DNA of 64,000 nucleotides, taken from Haladaptatus paucihalophilus DX253 (GTDB lineage Archaea; Halobacteriota; Halobacteria; Halobacteriales; Haladaptataceae). Below the pieces are notes generated by a model. It had not been told where the DNA came from, made no database searches, and was given only the letters and a program-made list of their open reading frames with translations. Made by a program: the position numbers and the translations under genes. Each line of letters opens with the position of its first letter. Position 1 is the first letter of the stretch. Location: contig NZ_AQXI01000006.1 of assembly GCF_000376445.1 (NCBI RefSeq), positions 1 through 64,000 of the forward strand, given 5' to 3'. Of the stretch, positions 1 to 12,089 are shown in pieces.

Positions 1-518
1 CCGGTCACGACGAACAGGAAGGCGGGAGCGCGCACGATGCCGCCCGCGGAGAGGTGCCACTGGAGAACCGGCGGTGTCACCGCGAGGACGAACGTGGCGA
101 ACCCGGCCCGCGGCGTCGAGTCGAGGACCTCGTGAGCGAGATAGTAGAACGGGACGAGGTACAGAATCGTCACGAGACCTGGGAGGAAGCGACTGAGCGT
201 AATGGGTCCGACGCCGGTCACGTCCATCAATATCGCCGAGACGTAGTACATCAGCGGCGGATAGCCGAACGGAACCCCGTCCTTCGTGTACAGCGGGATT
301 CGAGCGGGAAGGCCGTACCCGTGCGCGCTGATTTCACTGGCAATTTTGAGATAGAGACCGGCACCGTATGCCGGATACGGATGAACCAGCAGGTACGTGA
401 AATACACGAGGATTCCCGTCCCCATCGCCGTTGCGAGCCAGACGCGTTCGTCGCTCGCTAGCTCGGCTACCTTCGATACGACATCCCATTTCTGTCGTTC
501 ATTGACACCATGTGACAT
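1..518 (-). CDS. Polytopic membrane protein, GT-C/PMT-like (N-terminal part, cut by window edge)
   Basis: The reading frame starts at an ATG complementary to 516-518 and runs off the window, so only about 172 N-terminal residues are visible. After a short polar start (MSHGVNERQKWDVV) come hydrophobic segments alternating with short loops. The loop with VHPYPAYGAGLYLKIASEI followed by GVPFGYPPLMYYVSAILMD resembles the first outer loop of GT-C-fold glycosyltransferases and related archaeal membrane proteins, where an acidic residue usually helps catalysis. Here I see no obvious DD or DE pair in the visible loop, so the function is open. There is no neighbour on the same strand inside the window. 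Confidence 0.6.
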   Translation of the reverse strand, partial: MSHGVNERQKWDVVSKVAELASDERVWLATAMGTGILVYFTYLLVHPYPAYGAGLYLKIASEISAHGYGLPARIPLYTKDGVPFGYPPLMYYVSAILMDVTGVGPITLSRFLPGLVTILYLVPFYYLAHEVLDSTPRAGFATFVLAVTPPVLQWHLSAGGIVRAPAFLFVVT

Positions 519-1094
519 CAGGCTTCACTCCAACTTCGGTCGTGGACGGGCGGCGTTGCTCGTACAGAGGGACGGCCGCCTATACTTTCTTTCTGGCCGC
601 TGTGCGCATTATTCTCACACGTACCGTTCCCGCGGATGGACGCCAGTGGGGTCATCGACGAAGCGACGACACCGACACTGGGTGGCACGCGTGGACGATA
701 CGACTTCGGGGAGGGCATCTTTTTCATAGCGTGTACGTGGATACTTTTTATTATCGCGTAGCTAAGCCGTTCAAGGACTGTTTGAATACAAAATGAACGG
801 TGTAGGACTATCCTACCATAAAGCGGGAGCCATGGAACGATAGCGCGAGAGACACGTACGAGAAAATACGTCACAGTATACTTAATTTTGTGGTGGAACC
901 GGTGTCATGGAAAATGTTCTCAAAGCTCATTCAGAAGGAAAGGGGAAGAAAGACGTTAAGTTATGAATAATAAAACGGCACGCCCGTCTCTCCGTAGATA
1001 ACAATACCCATACTGTTTCGTTCGAGCAATCACTCTCATCTCAGCTCTCTCACGGGACAGTTCGCCAGCGGCGTGACGAGAACACCCTATCACC
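519..1094. other. Intergenic region, no gene seen
   Basis: These 576 bases lie between two divergently oriented genes. Short open frames here have no family resemblance. The only structure noted is a small perfect dyad at 802-816 (GTAGGA, 3-base centre, TCCTAC), followed by an AT-rich stretch near 870-960 that could hold the promoter of the downstream solute-binding gene. Confidence 0.5.
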
Positions 1095-2955
1095 ATGTCA
1101 TCACACACGGAATCCGACCGACGTACCGTGGCGGAGTCCACATCGAAAACGGGACGGCGAGAACTGCTCGCCGCGCTCGGGATGACGCTCGGCAGCGGCT
1201 GTATCGAGGAGGCTCGGTCGTTGGTCAGTCGCGACAGTCCAACGCAGGTCTCTCTCTCGATAAAGACCCTCCCGGCGGACGCGGACCCACGCCCCATCCG
1301 TATCGCACAGTTCCTCGCGAAACAACTCCGTTCGGTCGGAATCGACGTCCAAGTCGTTCCGATGGGACGCGTCGAACGATGGCTGGGTCGTGCTCCTGAA
1401 CCAGTCGTTCGACTGCTACGTCGGACAGCATCCCGGTATCGACGACCCGGACGAACTCCGGACGCTCCTCCACTCCCGATTCGACGCCGAAACGGGGTGG
1501 CAAAACCCGTTCGGTTACGCCAATCTCAGCGTCGATGATCTGCTCACTGCACAGCGAAAACAGAGCGGGAACAAACGGGAGAAAACGCTCCGAAAGCTAC
1601 AGCAGGCGATCGTCCGCGACCAACCGTTTTCCGTCGTCGCGTTCCCCGACGAGATTCGAGCGACCAGAACGGACCGTTTCGACGGGTGGGAGGGATACGA
1701 GACGATTCACTCGCTCTTTGGGTATCTTTCCGTACGCGAGACGGGTACGAGGGGTGGCAGAGGTGGCGTCAAACCGCTCCGGATGACCATCCAAGATTCG
1801 GCTCCCACGGTGAACCTCAATCCGCTCGCGGTCGAGTTTCGAAGCGACGAAACGATACTCGATCTGCTGTATGACTCCCTCGGACGGCGGATAGATGGAA
1901 GGGTCCGCCCGTGGCTCGCCCGGTCGTGGGACTGGCAGACGTCCACAAGAGCGCCCACAGCGACGGTTCACCTCCGAGATGGACTGTGGTGGCACGACGG
2001 TGCCGCGCTCACGGCGGAAGACGTCGCATTCACCTACGAATTCCTCGGCGATACCTCGCTCGGGTCGCTCGAAAGTCCGGTTCCCGCACCGCGGTTTCGG
2101 GACGCCGTGTCGCTGGTGAAATCGGCGACGGCACTCGATGACAGGACCGTTCGAATTCGATTCGAGAACGCCAGTCGAGCGGTCGCAACGAAGGCATTTT
2201 CGACGCCGGTGCTACCGAAACACATCTGGAAGTCGAAGCACGAGCAGGCCGAAATCGCGGGATTCAGAGCCGACTCGACGACGACGAAGGCGCTCGTCTG
2301 GAGCAACATGGAACCCGTCGGAAGCGGCCCATGGCAGTTCAGCGATGCGAAGATGAAGAAGTCCCTGACGCTCGATCGGTTCGACCACCACTTCCTCCGA
2401 CGTATCGAGACGGACACCGAGATGTTGGATTCGAACGGTGATTCGACGCCAGCGCCGGACTATATACACCGGTATGCGGGTGGTCCCGCGTTCGAATCGT
2501 TGCGATTCCGCGTCGTGCCCTCGGGAGCGGCGGCAACCGAACTCGTGCTAAACGACGAAGCAGACGGGACCGCGACTGGCGTGACCGCGAAAGAAGTTCG
2601 CGATATCGGTCGTGCGGAGAACGTCCAGTTACACGTTGATAAGTCGCCGTCGCTGTATCACGTCGGTTTCAATGCCCGAAAGGCGCCGTTCAGCAACGTT
2701 CGGTTCCGTCGAGCGGTGGCGCAACTACTGGACAAGAAATATCTCGTCGATAGCGTGTTCAACCAGTACGCCGAACCGGCCACGAGCCCGTTAGCCCAAC
2801 ACGACTCGCTCGCGCCGAAACTTCGATGGGACGGAACGGACCCGGAGCTACCGTACCCCGGAAAGGACGGAAATCTCAACGTGAAAAACGCGAAGAAGGC
2901 GTTCAAAGACGCGGGATATCGGTACACCAACGACGGAGAGTTATTGCAACGATGA
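1095..2955 (+). pseudogene. Frameshifted extracellular solute-binding protein, family 5 (peptide type), circularly permuted
   Basis: Two open frames join into one protein. The first (from ATG 1095) has a Tat/lipoprotein-like start (TGRRELLAALGMTLGSGC) and enters a family-5 solute-binding lobe (TLPADADPRPIRIAQFLAKQ). It loses the frame between about 1365 and 1390. The second frame continues the same fold (LLNQSFDCYVGQHPGIDDPD) to a stop at 2955. The lobe that normally ends these proteins comes first here, and the N-terminal lobe (NLNPLAVEFRSDETILDLLYD, then GLWWHDGAALTAEDVAFTYE) follows and ends where the second lobe would begin. The expected role is capture of peptides or similar ligands outside the cell for an ABC importer; no permease or ATPase gene is adjacent. 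A sequencing error could explain the shift, in which case the gene is intact. Confidence 0.75.
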
Positions 2956-2968
2956 GGAATCGAATAGA

Positions 2969-3031
2969 GACTCGAACGAGGCGACGAGCGATTCGAACGA
3001 AGCGACGGGCGATTCGAACGAGACGACGAGC
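2969..3031 (+). repeat. Three 21-bp tandem repeats between two genes
   Basis: Three units start at 2969, 2990 and 3011 and share the core TCGAACGA. Their length is a multiple of three, and in the frame of the downstream PAP2 gene they would read DSNEATS, DSNEATG and DSNETTS. They sit just after the stop of the solute-binding gene, so they may be a remnant of a coding tail. Confidence 0.8.
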
Positions 3032-3091
3032 GAACCTCGAAGGCATGAGACACGGGAAATCAACAAACGTAGAACACCGGAGGAACAGAGC

Positions 3092-3892
3092 GTGAGCTTA
3101 GCCGAAATCACCGGTTTCGTGCTCGTCGGGGAGATGCTGATGCTCGGCGTTGCGACGACGGTTGTGGTCGGACGGACGGGACTCATGCGCGCGCGAGAAC
3201 AGTTTCGAGACCGACTGTTCGAGGTGTATCCACACATCGGCCTCTTGCTCGGTGTTCTCGTGGTGAACAAGGTCGCTCGCGAGTTCGGTCCCGAACTGTC
3301 GTGGATCATCGGTTGGAATATCACTAGTCGGATTTACGCAATCGAGGGCAACTTCGTCGGAACGGTCCAATCGGTCGCACGACCGGAGCTGACGACGTAC
3401 TTCTCGTTCATGTACATCTACGGGTACGTGTTCATCCTCGTGTTTCCGTTCGTCGCCTACTTCGCGCTCGCGGACAGTAAGCCGTTGAAGAAGGCGGCGG
3501 TCGCGTTCGCGGTGAACTACGGTCTCGGGCTCGTCTGCTACATCCTGTTCATTTCCTATGGCCCGCGGAACCTGATACCGGACGTCGTTCATCCGCTGCT
3601 CTACTCGACGTATCCCGAATCACAGATACTGACCGGACAGGTGAACGCGAACACGAACGTCTTTCCCTCCCTCCATACGTCGCTGTCTGTCAGTTCCGCC
3701 CTGTTGGCGTACCAAACCCGGGACTCGTATCCCCGATGGACGCTCATTGCGATTCCCATGGCGGCGAGTATCATCGTCGCCACGATGTATCTCGGAATCC
3801 ATTGGGCGACGGACGTCTGTGCGGGCAGTGTTCTCGGAGTTGGAAGTGTCCTCATCGCGGACCGCTACGTTTCGGACGATTCCCCGGAGTAG
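3092..3892 (+). CDS. PAP2-superfamily membrane protein (inositol-phosphorylceramide-synthase/AUR1-like)
   Basis: This 266-residue protein has about six membrane spans. The two C-terminal phosphatase motifs are visible: FPSLHTS near residue 191 (motif 2 with its histidine) and GIHWATD near residue 239 (motif 3, H-x3-D). These are arranged as in the PAP2_3/AUR1-like branch, whose members cleave or transfer phosphate-linked head groups at the membrane. The GTG start is supported by a GGAGG sequence at 3079-3083, eight bases upstream. The gene follows the solute-binding gene at 136 bp, with the 21-bp repeats in between. The substrate cannot be told from sequence; a lipid or isoprenoid phosphate is the family-based guess. 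Confidence 0.75.
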   Translation: MSLAEITGFVLVGEMLMLGVATTVVVGRTGLMRAREQFRDRLFEVYPHIGLLLGVLVVNKVAREFGPELSWIIGWNITSRIYAIEGNFVGTVQSVARPELTTYFSFMYIYGYVFILVFPFVAYFALADSKPLKKAAVAFAVNYGLGLVCYILFISYGPRNLIPDVVHPLLYSTYPESQILTGQVNANTNVFPSLHTSLSVSSALLAYQTRDSYPRWTLIAIPMAASIIVATMYLGIHWATDVCAGSVLGVGSVLIADRYVSDDSPE

Positions 3893-4024
3893 AAAATGGA
3901 CGCACCGTATGTCAAAGTTAAGAACGGAGAGAGTTTCTAGAAATGAGACAAACGATCAGTAATTGGGATAGATAGGAAATGAATGACCAGTTTGGCGCAG
4001 TGTTGGGGGATAACAAATAGCATG

Positions 4025-4074
4025 GAGACACACACACCACGTTTCCAGTGAAATGGGATGAAGGGGTGGGTGGG
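4025..4074 (+). repeat. Left arm of 50-bp origin inverted repeat
   Basis: The arm begins GAGACACACACACCACG, passes through an ORB-like element (minus orientation) and ends in the G-rich tract GGGTGGGTGGG. It matches the reverse complement of 5040-5089 at 49 of 50 positions (mismatch at 4063/5051). A G-rich tail next to the ORB resembles the G-string seen beside haloarchaeal ORBs. Confidence 0.95.
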
Positions 4075-4417
4075 GTGCAGATGAAATGGGGGTCGAACGG
4101 GGTATAACCGAGGATAAATGAAAATTATTTATCAATAAAGGAAAATACGAATTTGAAAGCCATGAAATCAATTGAGGGTTGAGAATTATGGGGGAATTCT
4201 GTGGACACCGCATTTCCAGTGAAAATTGAGGGTTCTAAAATTGTATTTTAGAATCGGAGAGAGACGGAATATCGAGGAGAAAGCCGGAAGGCGAGGTCAA
4301 TTTACATTGTTGGAGAATCCCATTGAAAGAAGAATTTACACTGGAAACGTGGTCTCCCAAAAGGGCGAGCACCACGAAGTGAAAACACGACACTGCCGAA
4401 ACGTAAGAACAACCCAG

Positions 4418-4501
4418 ACGCACCGATCGGTAGTACAGACGGAAAACGCACCGATCGGTAGTACGGACAGAAAACGCACCAATCGGTAGTACGGACGGTA
4501 A
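4418..4501 (+). repeat. Three 28-bp tandem repeats (iteron-like) in the origin
   Basis: Units start at 4418, 4446 and 4474, with a partial fourth from 4502. Each contains the palindromic core ACCGATCGGT (ACCAATCGGT in unit three) followed by AGTAC. Exact spacing and a palindromic core suggest a protein-binding array; the binding protein is unknown. Confidence 0.9.
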
Positions 4502-4891
4502 ACGCAGCGATTTCACTGGAAGTGCGGTGTCCACGGGAAAAACAGATATCGTCAAAAATGGATAGTGGTTAAACAGGGTTATCGTTCGAACACGCCCAGC
4601 CCGTAATGAGAGACTCCTAAATTAGAACACGGGAAGGACTGAAACACGATAATTCACCGGAAATGAGGTGTGCTACGACGTGAGGAATTTCACTGGAAAC
4701 GTGGTGTGAATGGAACGGACGGAGAACGAATCCAGTGGACGAACCGACGGAGAACTCGATAGTTGCCGAACCAGGGACTGCACTGATCTACTCGTTATGT
4801 TAGAGGAACACACCATGTTTCCAGTGAAAGTTGACCGTGAGACGGTGAAAACGGGTTACAAGAAATAGAACCCCTATTTCGGATGCGACCA

Positions 4892-4911
4892 CCCGTGATA
4901 TTTATCACGGG
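4892..4911. promoter_or_regulatory. 20-bp dyad in the origin
   Basis: Arms CCCGTGATA and TATCACGGG are perfect and separated by two bases. The dyad lies at the left edge of the most AT-rich part of the origin. It could be an operator or a structure at the edge of the unwinding element. Confidence 0.6.
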
Positions 4912-5039
4912 TTTTAGATTATGGTGATTAACTTAATGGACTTTAACACTGTCTAGGTTTATAAATCGTTCTATTCCCTCCTATGACCTGCAGTATTATT
5001 GACTTTTTTACCGGCAATATAGTCCTGTTCCTTCTTCTA

Positions 5040-5089
5040 CCCACCCACCCTTTCATCCCATTTCACTGGAAACGTGGTGTGTGTGTCTC
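5040..5089 (-). repeat. Right arm of 50-bp origin inverted repeat
   Basis: This is the mirror copy of 4025-4074. It starts with the C-rich complement of the G-rich tract, then carries an ORB-like element in plus orientation (5061-5080). The two arms point away from each other and enclose 965 bp. Confidence 0.95.
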
Positions 5090-5337
5090 GACTCAACTAG
5101 ACAATCGACCAACTGAAATAACCAGCTGAAGATATATTGGGCGGCCAATGTGACCCAATATGATGGTTAACAATCATCGCGCTCGATGTCGTCCTCACAT
5201 GATGCCTCTACGTCCCTATGTCATCGCTCCGCTATCGCTCCGCCATCGCTCCGATAGTAATTCGTGGGTAACGGACCGCGGAGGAAACAGACCGGACTCA
5301 GGGGAACGGTCCCGTTTCCGTCTCGATTGACGGGTAC

Positions 5338-5394
5338 CCTCCCGGTCGGCCGTCATCCTCCCGGTCGGCCGTCATCCTCCCGGTCGACGAGCAT
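5338..5394 (+). repeat. Three 19-bp tandem repeats before orc1/cdc6
   Basis: Units begin at 5338, 5357 and 5376 with the shared start CCTCCCGGTCG; the first two are identical and the third diverges at its end. They are GC-rich, unlike the AT-rich origin core, and lie between the inverted repeat and the orc1/cdc6 promoter. Confidence 0.9.
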
Positions 5395-5422
5395 CCGTTT
5401 TACGCCCGGAACAGTAAAGGGA

Positions 5423-5442
5423 TTTCACTGGAAACGTGGTGT
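5423..5442 (+). promoter_or_regulatory. ORB-like element at the orc1/cdc6 start
   Basis: An exact copy of the consensus TTTCACTGGAAACGTGGTGT ends two bases before the likely ATG of orc1/cdc6. Initiator bound here would cover the start and the presumed transcription start, which suggests autoregulation. Confidence 0.75.
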
Positions 5443-5444
5443 CC

Positions 5445-6644
5445 ATGAGCGATGCCGACTCGGACGAACTCTTCTCTCGGGAGGACCTCATCTTCGCGAA
5501 AAAGGAACTCCTCGAAATAAACCATCTTCCGACTCACGGTCGAATCGTCGGTCGAGATGACGAAATCTCTGCTCTCGCAAACGCTCTGAATCCCGCGTTG
5601 TTCAACCAGTCCCCGAGCAACGTCTTGTTGTATGGAAAGACGGGAACCGGGAAATCACTCTGTGCAAAACACGTCTCTCGTCGCCTCGTCGATGAAGCGG
5701 ACGAGGAAGGAGTCACCGTCGGCGTCGCCTACGTGGACTGCGCTCAAGATAGCACCGAGACACAGGCCGTCCAGACGATTGCGAGTACGACCAACACTCC
5801 GGACACGGACATCTCGATTCCCGATAAGGGTATCTCTACCTCGACATACTACAAGCGCCTGTGGCGAATCCTCGACGACCTGTACGATGTGGTCGTGATA
5901 ATCCTCGACGAAATCGACAAGCTGGAGAACGACGACATCCTGATGCAACTCTCGCGTGCGGGCGAAGCGGGAAAACTCCACAACTGCAAACTCGGCGTCA
6001 TCGGTATCAGTAACAAGATCAAGTACAAGGATCGGATGGACGAGCGCGTCAAATCGAGCCTCTGTGAGCGCGAATTCGTCTTTCCGCCGTACGACGCAAA
6101 TCAACTGCGAGCCATCATGGAGGCTCGTAGCGACGCGTTCAAACAGGGGGTTTTGGAACCGGGGACGATTCCGCTCGCGGCTGCACAGGCCGCACAGGAA
6201 CACGGGGACGCTCGCAAGGCGATCGACATCCTCCGATACGCGGGCGAACTTGCACAGGCAGAAAACGCCGAACGGGTCCGAGAGGAGTACGTGAAGAAGG
6301 CCCGCGAACGCGCGGAAAACGACCGATTTCGCGAGCTCATCCGCGGCGCGACGCCACACTCGAAATACGCGCTGCAGGCGCTTGCAATTCTTTCACTGGA
6401 TAACCCCGACGTGGACGCGTTCCGAACGAGTCGGGTGTACGAAGTGTACGAACAGGTCTGCCGACAGATGGACAGCGACCCGCTTTCGACCCGCCGGGTT
6501 CGGGACCTACTCCGCGAACAGGCGTTCCTCGACGTTATCGAACAGGCACGTCAAAGCGGCGGGAGTGCGGAGGGTAGCTACACCGAACACAGACTTCTCG
6601 AAGATCCGGAAGTGGTGAAAAAGGTTCTCGTTACCGAGGAGTGA
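5445..6644 (+). CDS. orc1: Orc1/Cdc6 replication initiator
   Basis: This 399-residue AAA+ ATPase has the usual length for archaeal Orc1/Cdc6, which binds ORB repeats, melts the origin and helps load the MCM helicase. Walker A is GKTGTGKS (64-71). Walker B is VVIILDEID near 150-158. A sensor-1 region (LGVIGISNKIKY) follows, and GDARKAIDILR marks sensor 2. The C-terminal third is the winged-helix DNA-binding domain. ATG 5445 is chosen over the GTG at 5436 because the latter lies inside the ORB and adds only three residues. The gene sits directly beside the repeat-rich origin and is its likely cognate initiator. Confidence 0.95.
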   Translation: MSDADSDELFSREDLIFAKKELLEINHLPTHGRIVGRDDEISALANALNPALFNQSPSNVLLYGKTGTGKSLCAKHVSRRLVDEADEEGVTVGVAYVDCAQDSTETQAVQTIASTTNTPDTDISIPDKGISTSTYYKRLWRILDDLYDVVVIILDEIDKLENDDILMQLSRAGEAGKLHNCKLGVIGISNKIKYKDRMDERVKSSLCEREFVFPPYDANQLRAIMEARSDAFKQGVLEPGTIPLAAAQAAQEHGDARKAIDILRYAGELAQAENAERVREEYVKKARERAENDRFRELIRGATPHSKYALQALAILSLDNPDVDAFRTSRVYEVYEQVCRQMDSDPLSTRRVRDLLREQAFLDVIEQARQSGGSAEGSYTEHRLLEDPEVVKKVLVTEE

Positions 6645-6719
6645 ACTCAATAGGTTACCGAAGAGTGAATTCAATCGAATACAGAAGGGGATATCCTGTA
6701 GGAAATCGAACGCTTCTCT

Positions 6720-6968
6720 TTACTCTCGCCATCGCTTTCGGCATCGCTCGTCACAGAACGCGTGAATCCGAAATCCGGTTCCATCGTTATCGGCGACCAC
6801 GGGATGCCATCGGTCGGTCTCGACCCTCGAACCGCAGTAGGAACACGTTTCGACGTTCGCTTCAGTTTTGATGTTTACTTCCGCTTTGATGTTCGCTTCC
6901 GCTTTTATCGATTCAACCGTTCGCGTGTCCCGCGTTACGAAGCATCCTTGTCCATCGTTCCCGCTCAT
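6720..6968 (-). CDS. Small zinc-finger protein
   Basis: About 82 residues. A C-terminal zinc-binding module has two cysteine pairs, CSYCGSRVETDRWHPV and CDERCRKRW, typical of short haloarchaeal TRASH-like or DUF7576-like zinc fingers. The N-terminal third repeats the motif IKAEANIKAEVNIKTEANV, which makes a short amphipathic, alanine/glutamate-rich helix. The start is placed at MSGNDGQG; an in-frame start 21 bases upstream is possible. It converges on orc1/cdc6. Role unknown; nucleic-acid or protein contact is usual for such modules. Confidence 0.6.
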   Translation of the reverse strand: MSGNDGQGCFVTRDTRTVESIKAEANIKAEVNIKTEANVETCSYCGSRVETDRWHPVVADNDGTGFRIHAFCDERCRKRWRE

Positions 6969-7082
6969 CGCTCTGTTCTTGCTTACCACACAATTCTATT
7001 CAATTATATAATTTTCCCTTCATCTACTATCGTGGAGCAGGCAACTGAAAATTTGAGTAACTACCGAATTATTTACTATTGA

Positions 7083-7178
7083 CTTCGCCTCTCTCCTCAT
7101 CTCCCTTCTCCCCTCCTCTCCTCTTTCTCCTCCCCTTCCCCTCCTCTCCTCTTTCCCATTTTCTCTCCTTCCCATTCT
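7083..7178 (+). repeat. Polypyrimidine tract
   Basis: Nearly 100 bases consist almost only of C and T on the plus strand (many CTCCTC, CTTTC and CCCCTC units), an extreme strand asymmetry in a region with no gene. It lies between the zinc-finger gene start and the end of the YdjM-like gene. Confidence 0.85.
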
Positions 7179-7210
7179 TTAATTCTCCGTCAAACAAATC
7201 TGTGTACGGC

Positions 7211-7777
7211 TTACGTTTCGATATCCGTTCCAGATTCGGATTCGAACCCCAAGTCGCGATGAACGAATCCCAGCGTGTAGGCGGGAACCGGGTCGGCAAT
7301 CCGCGCTTGCTGAACCGCTATCTGGAACGTTATTACGCCGAAGACGAGGAGTGCGAGGTTCGCTGATTGGTTGCTCGCGTAGACGAGATCGAACGTGTGT
7401 GGTTTCTCAAGTAGCGGATACAGCGGTTTGATACCCATTGGCGTGATGACATCCCCGGCGAGGTGACAACAGATGCCACCGAATCCGGTGACGAATCCGT
7501 AAAACGTCTCTTCACCTTTTCCGGCGAGTGCGAGCGGTTCAAAACGGAACGCGACGAGGGCGAGTACCCCTCCCGCGAGAAACGCGGCCCAGATGGTATG
7601 TGTAAGCCCTCGATGTGCGAGTTGTGTGATGCGAAGGTCGATATCGGGCGCGAGTCCCATCGGGAGCGCGGTTACGACTACGATCTTCGCTGCTCGTGTT
7701 TCATCCCGCGCGACGAGACCGAAAACGACGAATCCGAACACTGACAGTACGATTCCGAGGTGACCGATAGGGTTCAT
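7211..7777 (-). CDS. YdjM/DUF457-type membrane-bound metal-dependent hydrolase
   Basis: This 188-residue protein has about four to five membrane spans. It carries the family signature of metal-binding residues, PDIDLR followed by HRGLTHT, and a later HLAGDVITPMGI segment with another His/Asp pair. These features define the YdjM family of membrane-bound putative hydrolases, often seen next to stress or DNA-repair genes. The substrate is unknown. The gene ends beside the polypyrimidine tract and reads toward it. Confidence 0.8.
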   Translation of the reverse strand: MNPIGHLGIVLSVFGFVVFGLVARDETRAAKIVVVTALPMGLAPDIDLRITQLAHRGLTHTIWAAFLAGGVLALVAFRFEPLALAGKGEETFYGFVTGFGGICCHLAGDVITPMGIKPLYPLLEKPHTFDLVYASNQSANLALLVFGVITFQIAVQQARIADPVPAYTLGFVHRDLGFESESGTDIET

Positions 7778-7943
7778 GCGGCCACCGTGTGCTTGACATC
7801 CCCTGACATCGAGCAGTACTTTGTATCATCCTTCCCAAAACGTACGGCTTCAACCGTGTACGCTTTAAGACCCGAATCAGCGGTGGTTGAGGACGTCCAG
7901 GGCCCCCTCTCGGTTGCCTTTCTCTCTCAGTTGCTTTTCTCTC

Positions 7944-8705
7944 TCAGTTGTCTTTCTTCTTGACTGCCAACGCGCTCCCGATGAGTTGCTCCGTATCCCT
8001 TCGGAGTCGCTGCGAAATCGCCGACGTGGAAATGTCGAGTTCGTGCGCGAGTTCGTTCTGTGAGATTCGACGTGGAATCTCGTAGTACCCGCACTCGAAG
8101 GCCATCCGAAGTAGTTGCTTTTGTTTTTCAGTCAGCCCCACGACGTCCGTCTCCTCGTGATCCGTCGCGTTCCCGAGTTGGTTGACGCGAAACGTTACGT
8201 CGTTTTCCAGGCAATATTCCCGGAACGAAACGAGCGCTTGTCGAGTCGGTATCTGCATTCGGACGACCCAGCCGCCATCACCGCTCTCCACGTCGAGAAT
8301 CCGCGCGTCGAGTTCGGGACATCGTGGCGCGATGAGCTCGACGGTAGAAATCGGTTCGAGTCGGTACACGCGACGACCTTCGTACGTTTCGACTAACACC
8401 GGGTCGGTGACCGTGTAGTCTTGCTGTAGTTCTCGCTCGAACGTCTCGAACTCTTCACCGCGGACCGAGATGAAGAGGTGCTTCGGCGTCGTTCCGGTCA
8501 GGTGTTCGGTTTCGATGGTGACGTCGGTGACGGATTTGATAGTAGGAGAAAGAAGCAGGTCCGGACCTGAGAGAGATACTTCGGCGATAATATCATACAG
8601 TTGCCGTTTGATGCCCGTTTCGTCGCTGTTCGTCACCATTGATGTCGATTTCGTCAAACTGTCAGGGTGTGGCTGATTAGTGACATTGTTGGATTCTCCG
8701 CTCAT
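7944..8705 (-). CDS. HTH-10 (Bat-like) transcriptional regulator
   Basis: This 253-residue protein has a C-terminal HTH-10 domain (LTEKQKQLLRMAFECGYYEIP, with the recognition part ELDISTSAISQRLRR) and an N-terminal sensor-like domain of the bacterio-opsin-activator type. The first 22 residues are polar and variable. A TATA-like TATATAATT at 8714-8722 would put the transcript start near 8690, so translation may really begin at the internal Met (8639). It is a close relative of the regulators at 20915 and 23169. Target genes are unknown; the larger Bat-like gene is next, on the same strand. Confidence 0.85.
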   Translation of the reverse strand: MSGESNNVTNQPHPDSLTKSTSMVTNSDETGIKRQLYDIIAEVSLSGPDLLLSPTIKSVTDVTIETEHLTGTTPKHLFISVRGEEFETFERELQQDYTVTDPVLVETYEGRRVYRLEPISTVELIAPRCPELDARILDVESGDGGWVVRMQIPTRQALVSFREYCLENDVTFRVNQLGNATDHEETDVVGLTEKQKQLLRMAFECGYYEIPRRISQNELAHELDISTSAISQRLRRDTEQLIGSALAVKKKDN

Positions 8706-8804
8706 CTCTTTTGTATATAATTAACGGCCGACTGATGGATGTTATAGCTATATTTGTAGCCAGTTTCCCCCCGTCCTTCAATATGTATAAATCCGGTCTG
8801 ATAT

Positions 8805-10829
8805 TCATCGGTCTTCGAACAGCGCGGTAAGCAAGTTTCGTTCCGATGCACGCAGATGACGGTTGAACGTCGGTTGTGAGACACCGAGCGATTCGGCGAT
8901 TTCCTGCCCGGTACTTTCGCGCGGCCATTCGAAGAACCCACTCCAGTACGCCGTTTCCAGCGCTTCCGATTGACGGTCGGTGAGTCTGTGTCGTAACTGC
9001 GCTCGAAAGTCCTGTTCCGTCTGTACCGGGCGATTTCGCTTTCGTCGAGCGATGAGTTCCGTGTTGTCGTAGTGATTTTGAAACGTCTCGACGAAGCGCC
9101 GAACGTCGGCCGTCTGTGGGAGTTCGACCGTGAGTCTCGCTTCCGAGCCTTCCGCGGTCGCAGCCTTCGGAACTGCACCGTGGTCGAGCAACAGGGAAAT
9201 CACGTTTGACCCTGTTATCGTACATTCGAACAAATCCCGCTCGTCGTCTCCTGTGACGTGTCGAATGTCGTTAATGACGAGTGATTGGTCGGAAAACGAG
9301 ACCACCGATTCCGGAGTGGTCCCCTCCGTCGTGAAAAATAGCCGAAGTGTATCATCCGTCTCGCGGATGACGCTCTCGAACTCGAAGCGACAGTCGGCCA
9401 TCTGAACGAACTTGATGAGCGTGAACTGCGGGTCGCACACTCGAAACTCCAATTCGACGGCACTGTCGCTGACTAGTGCTTTTTTGCTCTCGACGGCGTT
9501 GATGGCGTACCCGGCACCTTTCCCAATATCTTCGAGCAGTGCTTGTTCCGCGTCGTTGAACACGTCCGGGTTGCCAGTGTAGACGGTGAGGACGCCGTAG
9601 ACGCTTCCACCGTAAATGAGCGGAACGCTAACCGCGGCCCTGTATCCTCTCTTCAGGGCTTCCTGTCGCCATGTTTCGTACGGTGGGTTGCCGAGCAAGT
9701 CGTCGTCGATTGCCGGCTCTCGTGTCCGAACTGCCCGCCACGCGGTCGTTTGGGCGGTTTCGCTGTTCGTCTCCGAGAGTTCGTCGAGAAATGTCTGTTC
9801 GTCTCCGACCCACGTTCGTCCGGTGAGTTCGTCGGTCGTCGCGTCGTACTCGCCGATCCATGCGAACCGATACGGGGACGAGTTCGTCAACCGTTTACAG
9901 ACGTCGTATTCGATATCGCTCCGAGTATCCGCTTCGACGAGTGCGACGAGGATGTCTCGAATCACCGCTTCTCGACGTTGGGTGCGTTCGAGCGCCGTCT
10001 CCGTTTCCGATAGCGCCGCCTCTTGCGTGGTGAGTTCCCACTCGCGGTCGAGACGGGTGAACGCCGTTTCGGCGTTCGAAATTACCATCTCAACCAACGT
10101 CGCCTTCGTTCTGTTGGCGTCGGTCTGCGTCTCCTCGGCGACTATCAACGCTCCGTGCCGACCGAGTGGAAAGGCGATCTGACGAGTATCGTTCGCTTCG
10201 TCGTTACTGTACTCGGTACGCCGTTCGCCCTCCAGAAAGGCTCGCCAGCCCAATCCACCGTCGGTGTCGAACAGCCGTTCGTCGGGTTCGGAGACGCCTT
10301 CCCACGCAACCGGCCGAAGCGCGCCTTGTTCGCTATCGTATCGCGCGACGATAGCGGCCGAGTAGTCGAGGTCCGACTGTGCTATGTCGACGGTCATCTC
10401 GGCCACTCGGTCTTCCGTTTCGGCGTCCATCAGCCGTTTCAGTGAATCCTGTACCGCCGAGAGCCGCTTGCGATGACGTATCCGATTCCCGAGACGGTTT
10501 ACCCGCTGTACTAACGCCTGTCCCTCGCCTGTGAAAGGAATCCACTCCGCTAACTCCCTGTCGAGAACGTCTCGGACGGTCTCGTCCACCCTCTCGGATA
10601 CGAGGAGGCGTGTAGTAGACGGAGACGACCGTCGAACGTCCTCGAAAAACGACATTACATCCGTATCGTGCGTAGTCGTACAGACAACGCAATCAGCCAT
10701 CTCGAGTATTTCGTCGGAGATGGGAGTCGTTGCGGTTTCGACGAGGACGTTCGACCGCTCTCGAAGCGTCGTTATCACTCTCTCGTCGTCAGCCGGGGGT
10801 ACGAAGAGGATACGAACTGCTTCAATCAT
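8805..10829 (-). CDS. Bat-like multidomain sensor-regulator (receiver-like, GAF, BAT, HTH-10)
   Basis: A 674-residue cytoplasmic regulator. The N-terminus is a receiver-like alpha/beta domain that does not show the full phospho-acceptor set. It is followed by two GAF-like domains, the second with the typical segment SVPLIYGGSVYGVLTVYTG near residue 400. Next comes the BAT domain (FTLIKFVQMADCRFEFESVI) and a C-terminal HTH-10 (LTDRQSEALETAYWSGFFEW, then SLGVSQPTFNRHLR). Proteins with this architecture sense light, oxygen or redox signals in haloarchaea and activate targets such as bop; the signal here is unknown. A GTTTGAAAC-type element lies about 175 bp upstream. Confidence 0.85.
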   Translation of the reverse strand: MIEAVRILFVPPADDERVITTLRERSNVLVETATTPISDEILEMADCVVCTTTHDTDVMSFFEDVRRSSPSTTRLLVSERVDETVRDVLDRELAEWIPFTGEGQALVQRVNRLGNRIRHRKRLSAVQDSLKRLMDAETEDRVAEMTVDIAQSDLDYSAAIVARYDSEQGALRPVAWEGVSEPDERLFDTDGGLGWRAFLEGERRTEYSNDEANDTRQIAFPLGRHGALIVAEETQTDANRTKATLVEMVISNAETAFTRLDREWELTTQEAALSETETALERTQRREAVIRDILVALVEADTRSDIEYDVCKRLTNSSPYRFAWIGEYDATTDELTGRTWVGDEQTFLDELSETNSETAQTTAWRAVRTREPAIDDDLLGNPPYETWRQEALKRGYRAAVSVPLIYGGSVYGVLTVYTGNPDVFNDAEQALLEDIGKGAGYAINAVESKKALVSDSAVELEFRVCDPQFTLIKFVQMADCRFEFESVIRETDDTLRLFFTTEGTTPESVVSFSDQSLVINDIRHVTGDDERDLFECTITGSNVISLLLDHGAVPKAATAEGSEARLTVELPQTADVRRFVETFQNHYDNTELIARRKRNRPVQTEQDFRAQLRHRLTDRQSEALETAYWSGFFEWPRESTGQEIAESLGVSQPTFNRHLRASERNLLTALFEDR

Positions 10830-11556
10830 TGTTTTTCTTCGCTGAAGGGATACCTTGTACGACCGGCGATACTACCTTATTCTTCCGATTCCAGGCAGTT
10901 ACCGCAGGGTCGATGTTTGACGGCCAATCCGACCAATCTATCTGTACACCCTTCTATGAGCGAAATTTGTAGCCGGACTACCTTAAACCCAGAAATCTAT
11001 TTCAGATGGTTTCAGATCGTTTCAAACTCCATCAATGTACGGCAGTCAGCTTCTATCGCGGATATCTCGAAGCTGAATTTTGAATTTCATATCTCTGTGA
11101 CGTATAGGTGTACCGCCTGTCGTCAACCGACAACGGCATACCTCTCTGTAATCTGAATAGAATGGATTCTCCAATTATCATTCGAATCACGACCCCTCGC
11201 TTTTTATCCACTTCGTGATTTTCAACCGGTCGCTCGATTCGTTCCTGGCGGATCCACTCTCCCCCGGTACCAAACCACTTCCCATTACGAATCTAAGCGG
11301 ATGTGATGTCGATCTCCGGGAAATCGCATGACGGCGTTGACTTTTCCCTATTTAAACTCTATTTCGATATACTAATTCCCTCGCGGTGGTCTCGCGCTGT
11401 TGCTGTCTTCGTCAGCCATCAAAATTTTTCCAGTCAACCCGGCGTCGGTTTGCTAGCGATGGGATGCGGTCGCTCTCGTGTTTACTACGGTGAGAATTCG
11501 GTACCGATAGCTATCGCTCGCGCCTCGTCCAGTTCTCCGATACTTCTATGTAGGAA
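10830..11556. other. Intergenic region, no gene seen
   Basis: About 730 bases without a convincing gene. The part nearest the Bat-like gene should hold its promoter; a GTTTGAAAC-type element is at 11003-11029 on the minus strand. The remainder is moderately AT-rich, and short frames here lack any family signature. Confidence 0.5.
11003..11029 (-). promoter_or_regulatory. GTTTGAAAC-type regulatory element
   Basis: Read on the minus strand, GTTTGAAAC is followed by GATCT and GAAACCAT. This is close to the dyad elements at 17844-17868 and 33854-33877. It lies upstream of the Bat-like regulator on the same strand. Confidence 0.45.
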
Positions 11557-11793
11557 TTAGTCGGCGTGAGGGGCGACCGTTTCGGTCTCCTCGCTCATCA
11601 TACTCGTCGTGAGATCGTTTGCCAGTTTGAGCACTGCTTCTCGGTGGTCGTTTTTCGAATGGTGAATAGAAGTTGGCCGCGTCGTTTGTTCGTCGTATGC
11701 CGAGAGGTCGAAAGTAGAATCGGTCTGTGTCTCAAACCGGTTTCGTACTTCCGAAAGCAGTCCGTGCAGATGAATAAGCTCTTGTTTTTTCAT
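11557..11793 (-). CDS. UPF0058 family protein
   Basis: 78 residues starting MKKQELIHLHGLLSEVRN, the hallmark of the UPF0058 family of small archaeal, probably metal-binding proteins. A second member (19330-19563) in this window shares that start and the central PTSIHHSK segment. An in-frame upstream start would add 16 residues that the paralog lacks, so the shorter start is preferred. Function unknown. Confidence 0.8.
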   Translation of the reverse strand: MKKQELIHLHGLLSEVRNRFETQTDSTFDLSAYDEQTTRPTSIHHSKNDHREAVLKLANDLTTSMMSEETETVAPHAD

Positions 11794-12089
11794 CCCGACG
11801 ACAACTAATGACCGAACCCCTATAGTATTTCCTTGAGACATCCTCGCATACGATGACGTGCGGAATCGGACGGAGCATTTCGTCTCCGTTTTTACCCGCC
11901 GAATACTGATTGTGAAAAAGAAAAACTCGGTAGCAGTTTTTTTGCGTTATCGGTGAGCGCCCTGAACCCTGACTGTCTCGGATTCGGTTGTTCGACGGAC
12001 GGTTCTGGGAGCGACCCAACTGGGGCTATCCGAGGGCGGATCATTCGTCGAGAGGGGGACTGGTGTTTTCCTCGGTTGCGGTCACGCTT

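Follow-up and report, generated by a model that had tools for sequence, protein, structure and literature searches.

A probable cdc6-adjacent replication origin with mirrored arms and a candidate core polarity on a 79-kb Haladaptatus plasmid

The window analysed here is the stretch of 64,000 nucleotides that opens contig C6 (79,133 bp) of Haladaptatus paucihalophilus DX253. Near its start lies an orc1/cdc6 initiator gene (5445-6644, forward strand), the product of which, 399 amino acids long, comprises AAA+, Cdc6 lid and winged-helix domains. It matches the Pfam families AAA, Cdc6_lid and Cdc6_C, TIGR02928, and the Sulfolobus Orc1-1 structure 2qby_A at 9e-63; Cdc6_C has a single match on the whole contig, which is this gene. 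Upstream of cdc6 are nine copies of the ORB element, in the order > > < < < < > < <. The first and the eighth belong to the two mirrored arms described below. Six lie between these arms, at 4206-4224 and 4811-4829 on the forward strand and at 4337-4355 (with 2 mismatches), 4512-4530, 4653-4671 and 4689-4707 on the reverse strand. The ninth, a perfect copy on the reverse strand (5423-5442), stops two bases short of the cdc6 ATG. In 77 origins of the family an ORB lies no more than about 60 nt from the start of cdc6, and the conservation of this promoter element suggests that Cdc6 regulates its own gene, as is likely here. A lone ORB-like site with two mismatches was also seen 25 kb from the origin (G000:C6:29833-29852, reverse strand). 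Rfam gave no match between 3500 and 7000.

The two arms (4025-4074 and 5040-5089) are identical in inverted orientation at 49 of 50 positions, the lone mismatch falling at 4063. They are 965 nt apart and span 1065 nt in all, and the inverted match extends to 62 nt at 90% (4025-4086 / 5028-5089). Scored at +1/-2, it reaches 47, the highest inverted-match score within positions 1-12000, while the maximum in 100 dinucleotide shuffles of these first 12 kb is 22; searched against the complete 4.3-Mb genome, it has an E-value of 3e-17. The match and spacing reported in an earlier note on this DNA are therefore confirmed and lie far beyond chance. Further copies of the arms were not found in the whole 4.3-Mb genome, nor was an exact arm match found in viral contigs. 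Read from the outside to the inside, each arm consists of a CA repeat, an ORB (core TTTCCAGTGAAA) and a G-rich tract, the make-up that the note had given. In the left or “B arm” (4025-4086, forward strand) the ORB occupies 4035-4053 and the G-rich tract 4055-4075; in the right or “D arm” (5028-5089, reverse strand) they occupy 5062-5080 and 5040-5059, respectively. The description of the arms as outward-facing was not borne out, since the G tracts of both point inward; it is the CA/TG repeats that point outward. Both G tracts match the G-quadruplex pattern G3+N1-7 (4055-4075 on the forward and 5040-5059 on the reverse strand), and such motifs are very rare in the 64-kb window. We considered the quadruplex as a defining feature of the arms and rejected it, the pattern being present in just 13 of 80 right arms of the family (16%).

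Between the arms, base composition is uneven. Two AT-rich zones lie just inside them, one adjoining the left arm (4091-4200) and one adjoining the right arm (4891-5020), with up to 69% AT (windows at 4101 and 4911) where the surrounding sequence has about 57% GC; the right-hand zone is our preferred candidate unwinding element. The single AT-rich core that the earlier note had placed here is thus replaced by two zones. The 28-bp tandem repeat that it listed is real (4418-4511, forward strand, 3.4 copies), and six of the other seven ORBs do lie inside, 5423-5442 being outside. Tandem repeats of 11 bp and 19 bp were seen around the origin as well (5222-5253, 5338-5386). The 28-bp repeat is not conserved in relatives, and because these carry different tandem repeats inside the core, the repeats look like lineage-specific filler.

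The locus therefore combines an adjoining orc1/cdc6 gene, inverted ORBs with G-rich flanks and an AT-rich element between the ORBs, the features by which cdc6-adjacent origins are recognised. We consider it very probable that plasmid C6 (79 kb) replicates from this locus, that the origin belongs to the cdc6-adjacent type of haloarchaea nearest to oriCb, and that its arms work as proposed below. Judged by their sequence, the arms are the outer candidate initiator-binding sites of an ordinary Cdc6-type origin, a type that is already known. What counts against this reading is that the module lies 2-5 kb from cdc6 in some Haladaptatus plasmids. Cumulative GC skew along C6 is weak, with its minimum near 49 kb and its maximum near the contig ends, and so does not point to an origin at 4-5 kb. 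This, and the existence of ORB-bearing dormant origins in Haloferax (PMC4595724), would suit a dormant or titration site on a plasmid that replicates from elsewhere. Such a reading seems improbable, as the sole Cdc6 gene of the 79-kb contig is located here and the architecture is intact and conserved, being retained in related plasmids similar in size to C6.

Conservation among relatives also bears on what the arms are. The order of the ORBs is identical in Haladaptatus sp. DYF46 (G008) and nearly so in G007, despite divergence of much of the DNA that separates the ORBs, and the arms, the conservation of which in close relatives the earlier note had named as a check, are kept there in the same order and orientation. 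An inverted ORB pair is present in 78 of the 85 related origins scanned, arms of 40-70 nt joining an ORB and a G tract occur in many family origins, and mirrored ORB/G arms, 35-72 nt long and built on different ORB sequences, are present at further Cdc6 loci of the H. paucihalophilus genome. Thus, contrary to what the earlier note had supposed, the arms are not unusual in length. Their identity is: 98% is the highest value among 39 origins with two G-rich arms. That ORBs flank haloarchaeal origins, which the note took as known, agrees with the literature (PMC3936714). The G tract itself is preferentially associated with the arm. When the penultimate ORB before cdc6, i.e. that of the right arm, was taken without choosing by G content, at least 11 G were found in the 20 nt beyond it in 65% of cases, versus 21% for interior ORBs (p = 7e-15); a G-rich stretch lies beyond 16% of promoter ORBs.

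Paired inverted termini about 1 kb apart might also delimit a mobile element, or what is left of one, as its terminal inverted repeats, and some haloarchaeal origins are linked to transposases (Wu et al., PMC3528665). We rejected transposon termini: the arms form a single copy in the genome, no duplication lies just outside them and no transposase-like ORF inside, and their sequence is an ORB plus a G tract conserved at cdc6 loci across haloarchaea. This makes a mobile element the least probable of the readings weighed here. Scarcely more probable is the idea that the arms are fork-direction signals, as suggested in the earlier note, or fork-barrier signals. They do point oppositely at the two edges of the core. 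However, we found no evidence for such a role: the arms contain the initiator's own predicted site, and the composite pattern is restricted to origins. We know of no Tus-like factor or precedent for fork signals in haloarchaea.

Two characterised haloarchaeal systems can be compared with the origin that we propose. The oriCb family, defined by an Orc/Cdc6 identity of at least 80%, includes Orc5/oriC2 of H. volcanii, the orc5 gene of which is described beside 16S rRNA, and Nma_3611 of N. magadii (Wu et al. 2012, PMC3528665); H. volcanii Orc5/oriC2 is an active origin (PMC7776575). The Cdc6 of the window shares 78% identity with the Orc5-type protein of Haloferax, itself encoded beside a 16S rRNA gene, and 74-77% with those of N. 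magadii and H. turkmenica, the N. magadii and Haloferax proteins being 80% identical to each other. Since 78% falls below the oriCb cut-off, we call the origin oriCb-like. It resembles oriCb in having inverted ORBs upstream of cdc6 and a near-identical ORB core, TTTCC[AG]GTGAAA being common to the loci of Haloferax, H. turkmenica, Natronorubrum and other relatives. It differs in that its core is reversed relative to cdc6 when compared with Halorussus and most Natrialbaceae, and in that its arms are more alike than those of any relative scanned. In H. hispanica oriC1, deletion of either ORB impairs replication, mutation of either G-string abolishes it, and an inner G-rich inverted repeat acts as an enhancer; each H. 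hispanica origin relies on its own cdc6 (PMC3936714). The window shares with oriC1 an AT-rich core between inverted ORBs, an outer G-string (GTGGTGTGTG in the window) and an inner G-rich inverted repeat, but its ORB sequence and Cdc6 are different, its core measures about 1 kb and has extra ORBs, and the ORB and inner G tract are fused into a 50-nt arm.

Each end of the core bears a marker of its own. At the left arm this is box B (CAGATGAAATGGGGGTC; 4078-4094, forward strand; family consensus CAG[AT]TGAAA[CT]GGGGGTT), which is located 24-27 nt inward of the ORB at one arm only. Allowing at most 1 mismatch, 23 copies were found at this distance and 0 elsewhere in 444 kb of strand, and none in shuffled sequence. 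Of 391 haloarchaeal genomes, 17 have the joint ORB-box B pattern, each in one copy, and none has the reversed control pattern. We asked whether box B could be an oriC1-type ORB. It resembles the GAAACG..GGGG half but differs from the oriC1 arms present in the genome, and we keep the resemblance as a lead only.

At the other end, inside the right arm and in the AT-rich zone, lies what we term block D (4888-4966, reverse strand). Read inward from the arm, it consists of a TATA-like box, about 20 nt, a core AAAGTCCATTRA, typically 16-23 nt, and a hairpin; in the window, the TATA-like box is at about 4958-4965, the core AAAGTCCATTAA at 4933-4944 and the hairpin or palindrome, ACCCGTGATATTTATCACGGGT, at 4891-4912. 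The hairpin covaries in relatives. Across 18 aligned origins, pairing is seen in 87.7% of its cells and falls to 22-42% if the partner is slid; both sides have changed in 7 of the 9 pairs. G-U pairs occur in one cell only, and RNA is therefore unsupported over a DNA palindrome; a symmetric protein site is possible. In many origins, though not in all, block D sits in the most AT-rich stretch, and in most of those tested it lies either there or close by.

The sequence profile of block D finds two places in the whole 4.3-Mb genome, the origin of the window and that of contig C2 (L152:4025-4076), where the Cdc6 is 54% identical and block D lies inside that origin's own 72-nt arms; the exact core is restricted to the same two origins. 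Among 89 genomes the profile has eight matches. Those examined directly adjoin cdc6 genes, the proteins of which are 37-75% identical to that of the window. One match (L179) is at a contig end, and the equal-sized N. magadii pNMAG01 wraps round there to cdc6; the other matches fall in oriCb-like origins already known, those of G000, G002 and G015. The exact core was found at no fewer than 30 loci in 391 genomes. The link to cdc6 was checked for the 30 loci listed, further matches being present in other genomes, and 20 of these 30 are within about 1.5 kb of cdc6; one more (L197) is near a box B arm in its own genome. A stem of at least 6 bp accompanies the core at 17 of the 21 origin-linked loci and a TATA-like box at 19 of the 21, while neither is found at any of the nine unlinked copies (0/9 for each); such a stem arises in 5% of shuffles. 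Together, these comparisons provide strong evidence that block D is a real origin element, independent of the type of ORB.

In 19 of 19 origins holding both markers, B and D are at opposite ends of the core, and the block D profile finds further copies in origins outside its training set that do not conflict with these sides. As far as these motifs tell, the two arms are not equivalent: box B at one and block D inside the other give the core an inherent direction. This limits what gene conversion could have done. Under concerted evolution, the near-identity of the arms would be kept by conversion and not by binding constraints alone, which is compatible with the origin reading. In line with this, the similarity between an origin's own left and right arms, over the 30 nt beyond the ORB, exceeds that between origins (39 origins, permutation p = 0.0006), and the same excess is seen within Haladaptatus (p = 0.03). 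It is weak or absent in other lineages (p = 0.37 for Natrialbaceae and 0.07 for Halorubrum), and since each arm has a marker of its own, box B or block D, any conversion could have covered no more than about 50 nt. We regard a contribution of this kind as possible, but on balance doubtful.

The direction of the core is not fixed with respect to cdc6. Of the 19 origins, 13 have B next to cdc6 and 6, including that of the window, have D next to it. In a Cdc6 tree made by a quick method, the flipped origins fall into two groups, Haladaptatus/Halomicrococcus and Halostagnicola, amounting to two changes, or three when H. salinisoli and H. halobius are counted, with the P and F states of weakly matching origins resting on one marker and box B being degenerate in Halostagnicola. 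A single-clade origin of the flipped cores was rejected (AU p = 0.013, for a flipped group defined after the sequences were seen). On these phylogenetic grounds, the orientation of the B-D module towards cdc6 has changed two or more times and is therefore not tied to cdc6 transcription.

Such reversals raise the question of whether the arms are recombination sites, exchange between which inverts the 965-bp core as in an inversion switch. The opposite placement of B and D in 19 of 19 origins, the split into 13 and 6 orientations, and the occurrence of flipped origins in two separate clades all lend themselves to this idea. So does Halostagnicola, where the core is reversed versus other Natrialbaceae (L048, L148+L149): in strain A-GB9-2 (L048), the left arm aligns in inverted orientation to the relatives' cdc6-proximal B arm while the promoter flank is collinear, the pattern expected for exchange within the arms, and the exchange appears to be bounded by them. 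In H. salinisoli and H. halobius, however, the reversed block extends over the adjoining genes for PAP2 and ABC proteins, and the arms were thus not used in every flip. This gene order, a larger reversed block, led us to reject an arm-to-arm inversion for the Haladaptatus flip. Moreover, flips are rare on the tree, the two orientations were never seen within one species, and no recombinase was linked to the arms. With Halostagnicola apparently arm-bounded and H. salinisoli and H. halobius not, the arms may aid reversal of the core, their purpose being a separate matter; that they serve as a switch we consider unlikely. Whatever turned the cores round, box B and block D would offer an objective marker of origin polarity.

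Returning to the plasmid origin that we favour, we propose the following mechanism. The plasmid's own Cdc6, made from the adjacent gene, would bind the ORBs, with its winged helix on the core and its AAA+ domain on the G-rich flanks. Both arms would set the borders of the initiator-DNA complex, and each would direct one MCM hexamer, in opposite directions, into the AT-rich interior. The DNA would most probably melt at block D, next to the right arm. For Cdc6 binding and polarity, this scheme draws on other species. An inverted ORB pair around an unwinding element is the accepted layout for MCM helicase recruitment (PMC7776575, PMC12141716). The loading of two helicases that had been ascribed to the arms matches this layout as regards the ORB inversion, but not in its outward direction. 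The arms would be alike because both must fit the same initiator, and their near-perfect identity, to which gene conversion may have contributed, would represent the top of the distribution. Through the ORB at the cdc6 start codon, Cdc6 would repress its own gene. Block D may be bound by a protein, as is the Sulfolobus ucm, may form an extruded hairpin, or may give rise to a short transcript.

The comparison with Sulfolobus oriC1 (ORB2/ORB3, ucm; PMC12141716) is based on position. In both, a short conserved non-ORB motif lies in the DUE between inverted ORBs, and block D, like ucm, is common to origins with different initiators. However, reading the published ucm oligo against block D revealed no sequence resemblance, and block D differs in having a TATA-like box and a hairpin. 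The ucm is essential and bound by protein, UBP being described only in Sulfolobales/Desulfurococcales (PMC12141716). Block D could be an undescribed, direction-bearing core element, a putative haloarchaeal counterpart of ucm or the start of a transcript or primer, making the origin asymmetric together with box B; we offer this tentatively, as a reading somewhat short of an even chance. A literature search covering main texts found AAAGTCCATTRA with a haloarchaeal term in no paper, and priority is uncertain. If the reading is correct, block D would be a short, concrete candidate for a non-ORB origin factor in haloarchaea, a group in which work with origin plasmids and marker-frequency assays is routine. 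The Sulfolobus ucm study ends with the question of whether similar non-ORB factors exist at the origins of more distant archaea (PMC12141716).

Finally, the position of the module varies among Haladaptatus plasmids. In those of H. salinisoli and H. halobius (L144, L145) it is about 5 kb from cdc6 and in the opposite orientation to that of the window, the genes in between encoding PAP2, an ABC substrate-binding protein and a hypothetical protein; in H. litoreus (L007 / L138), about 2 kb separate the D arm from cdc6. The core can thus stand reversed relative to cdc6 and, in some plasmids, kilobases away from it. In Haladaptatus sp. DYF46, the origin stretch occurs twice on contig C3 (G008:C3; NZ_JAJFAY010000012.1, 88,898 bp), at 267-458 and 79192-79383; the contig end is therefore probably redundant and the plasmid about 78.9 kb in size.
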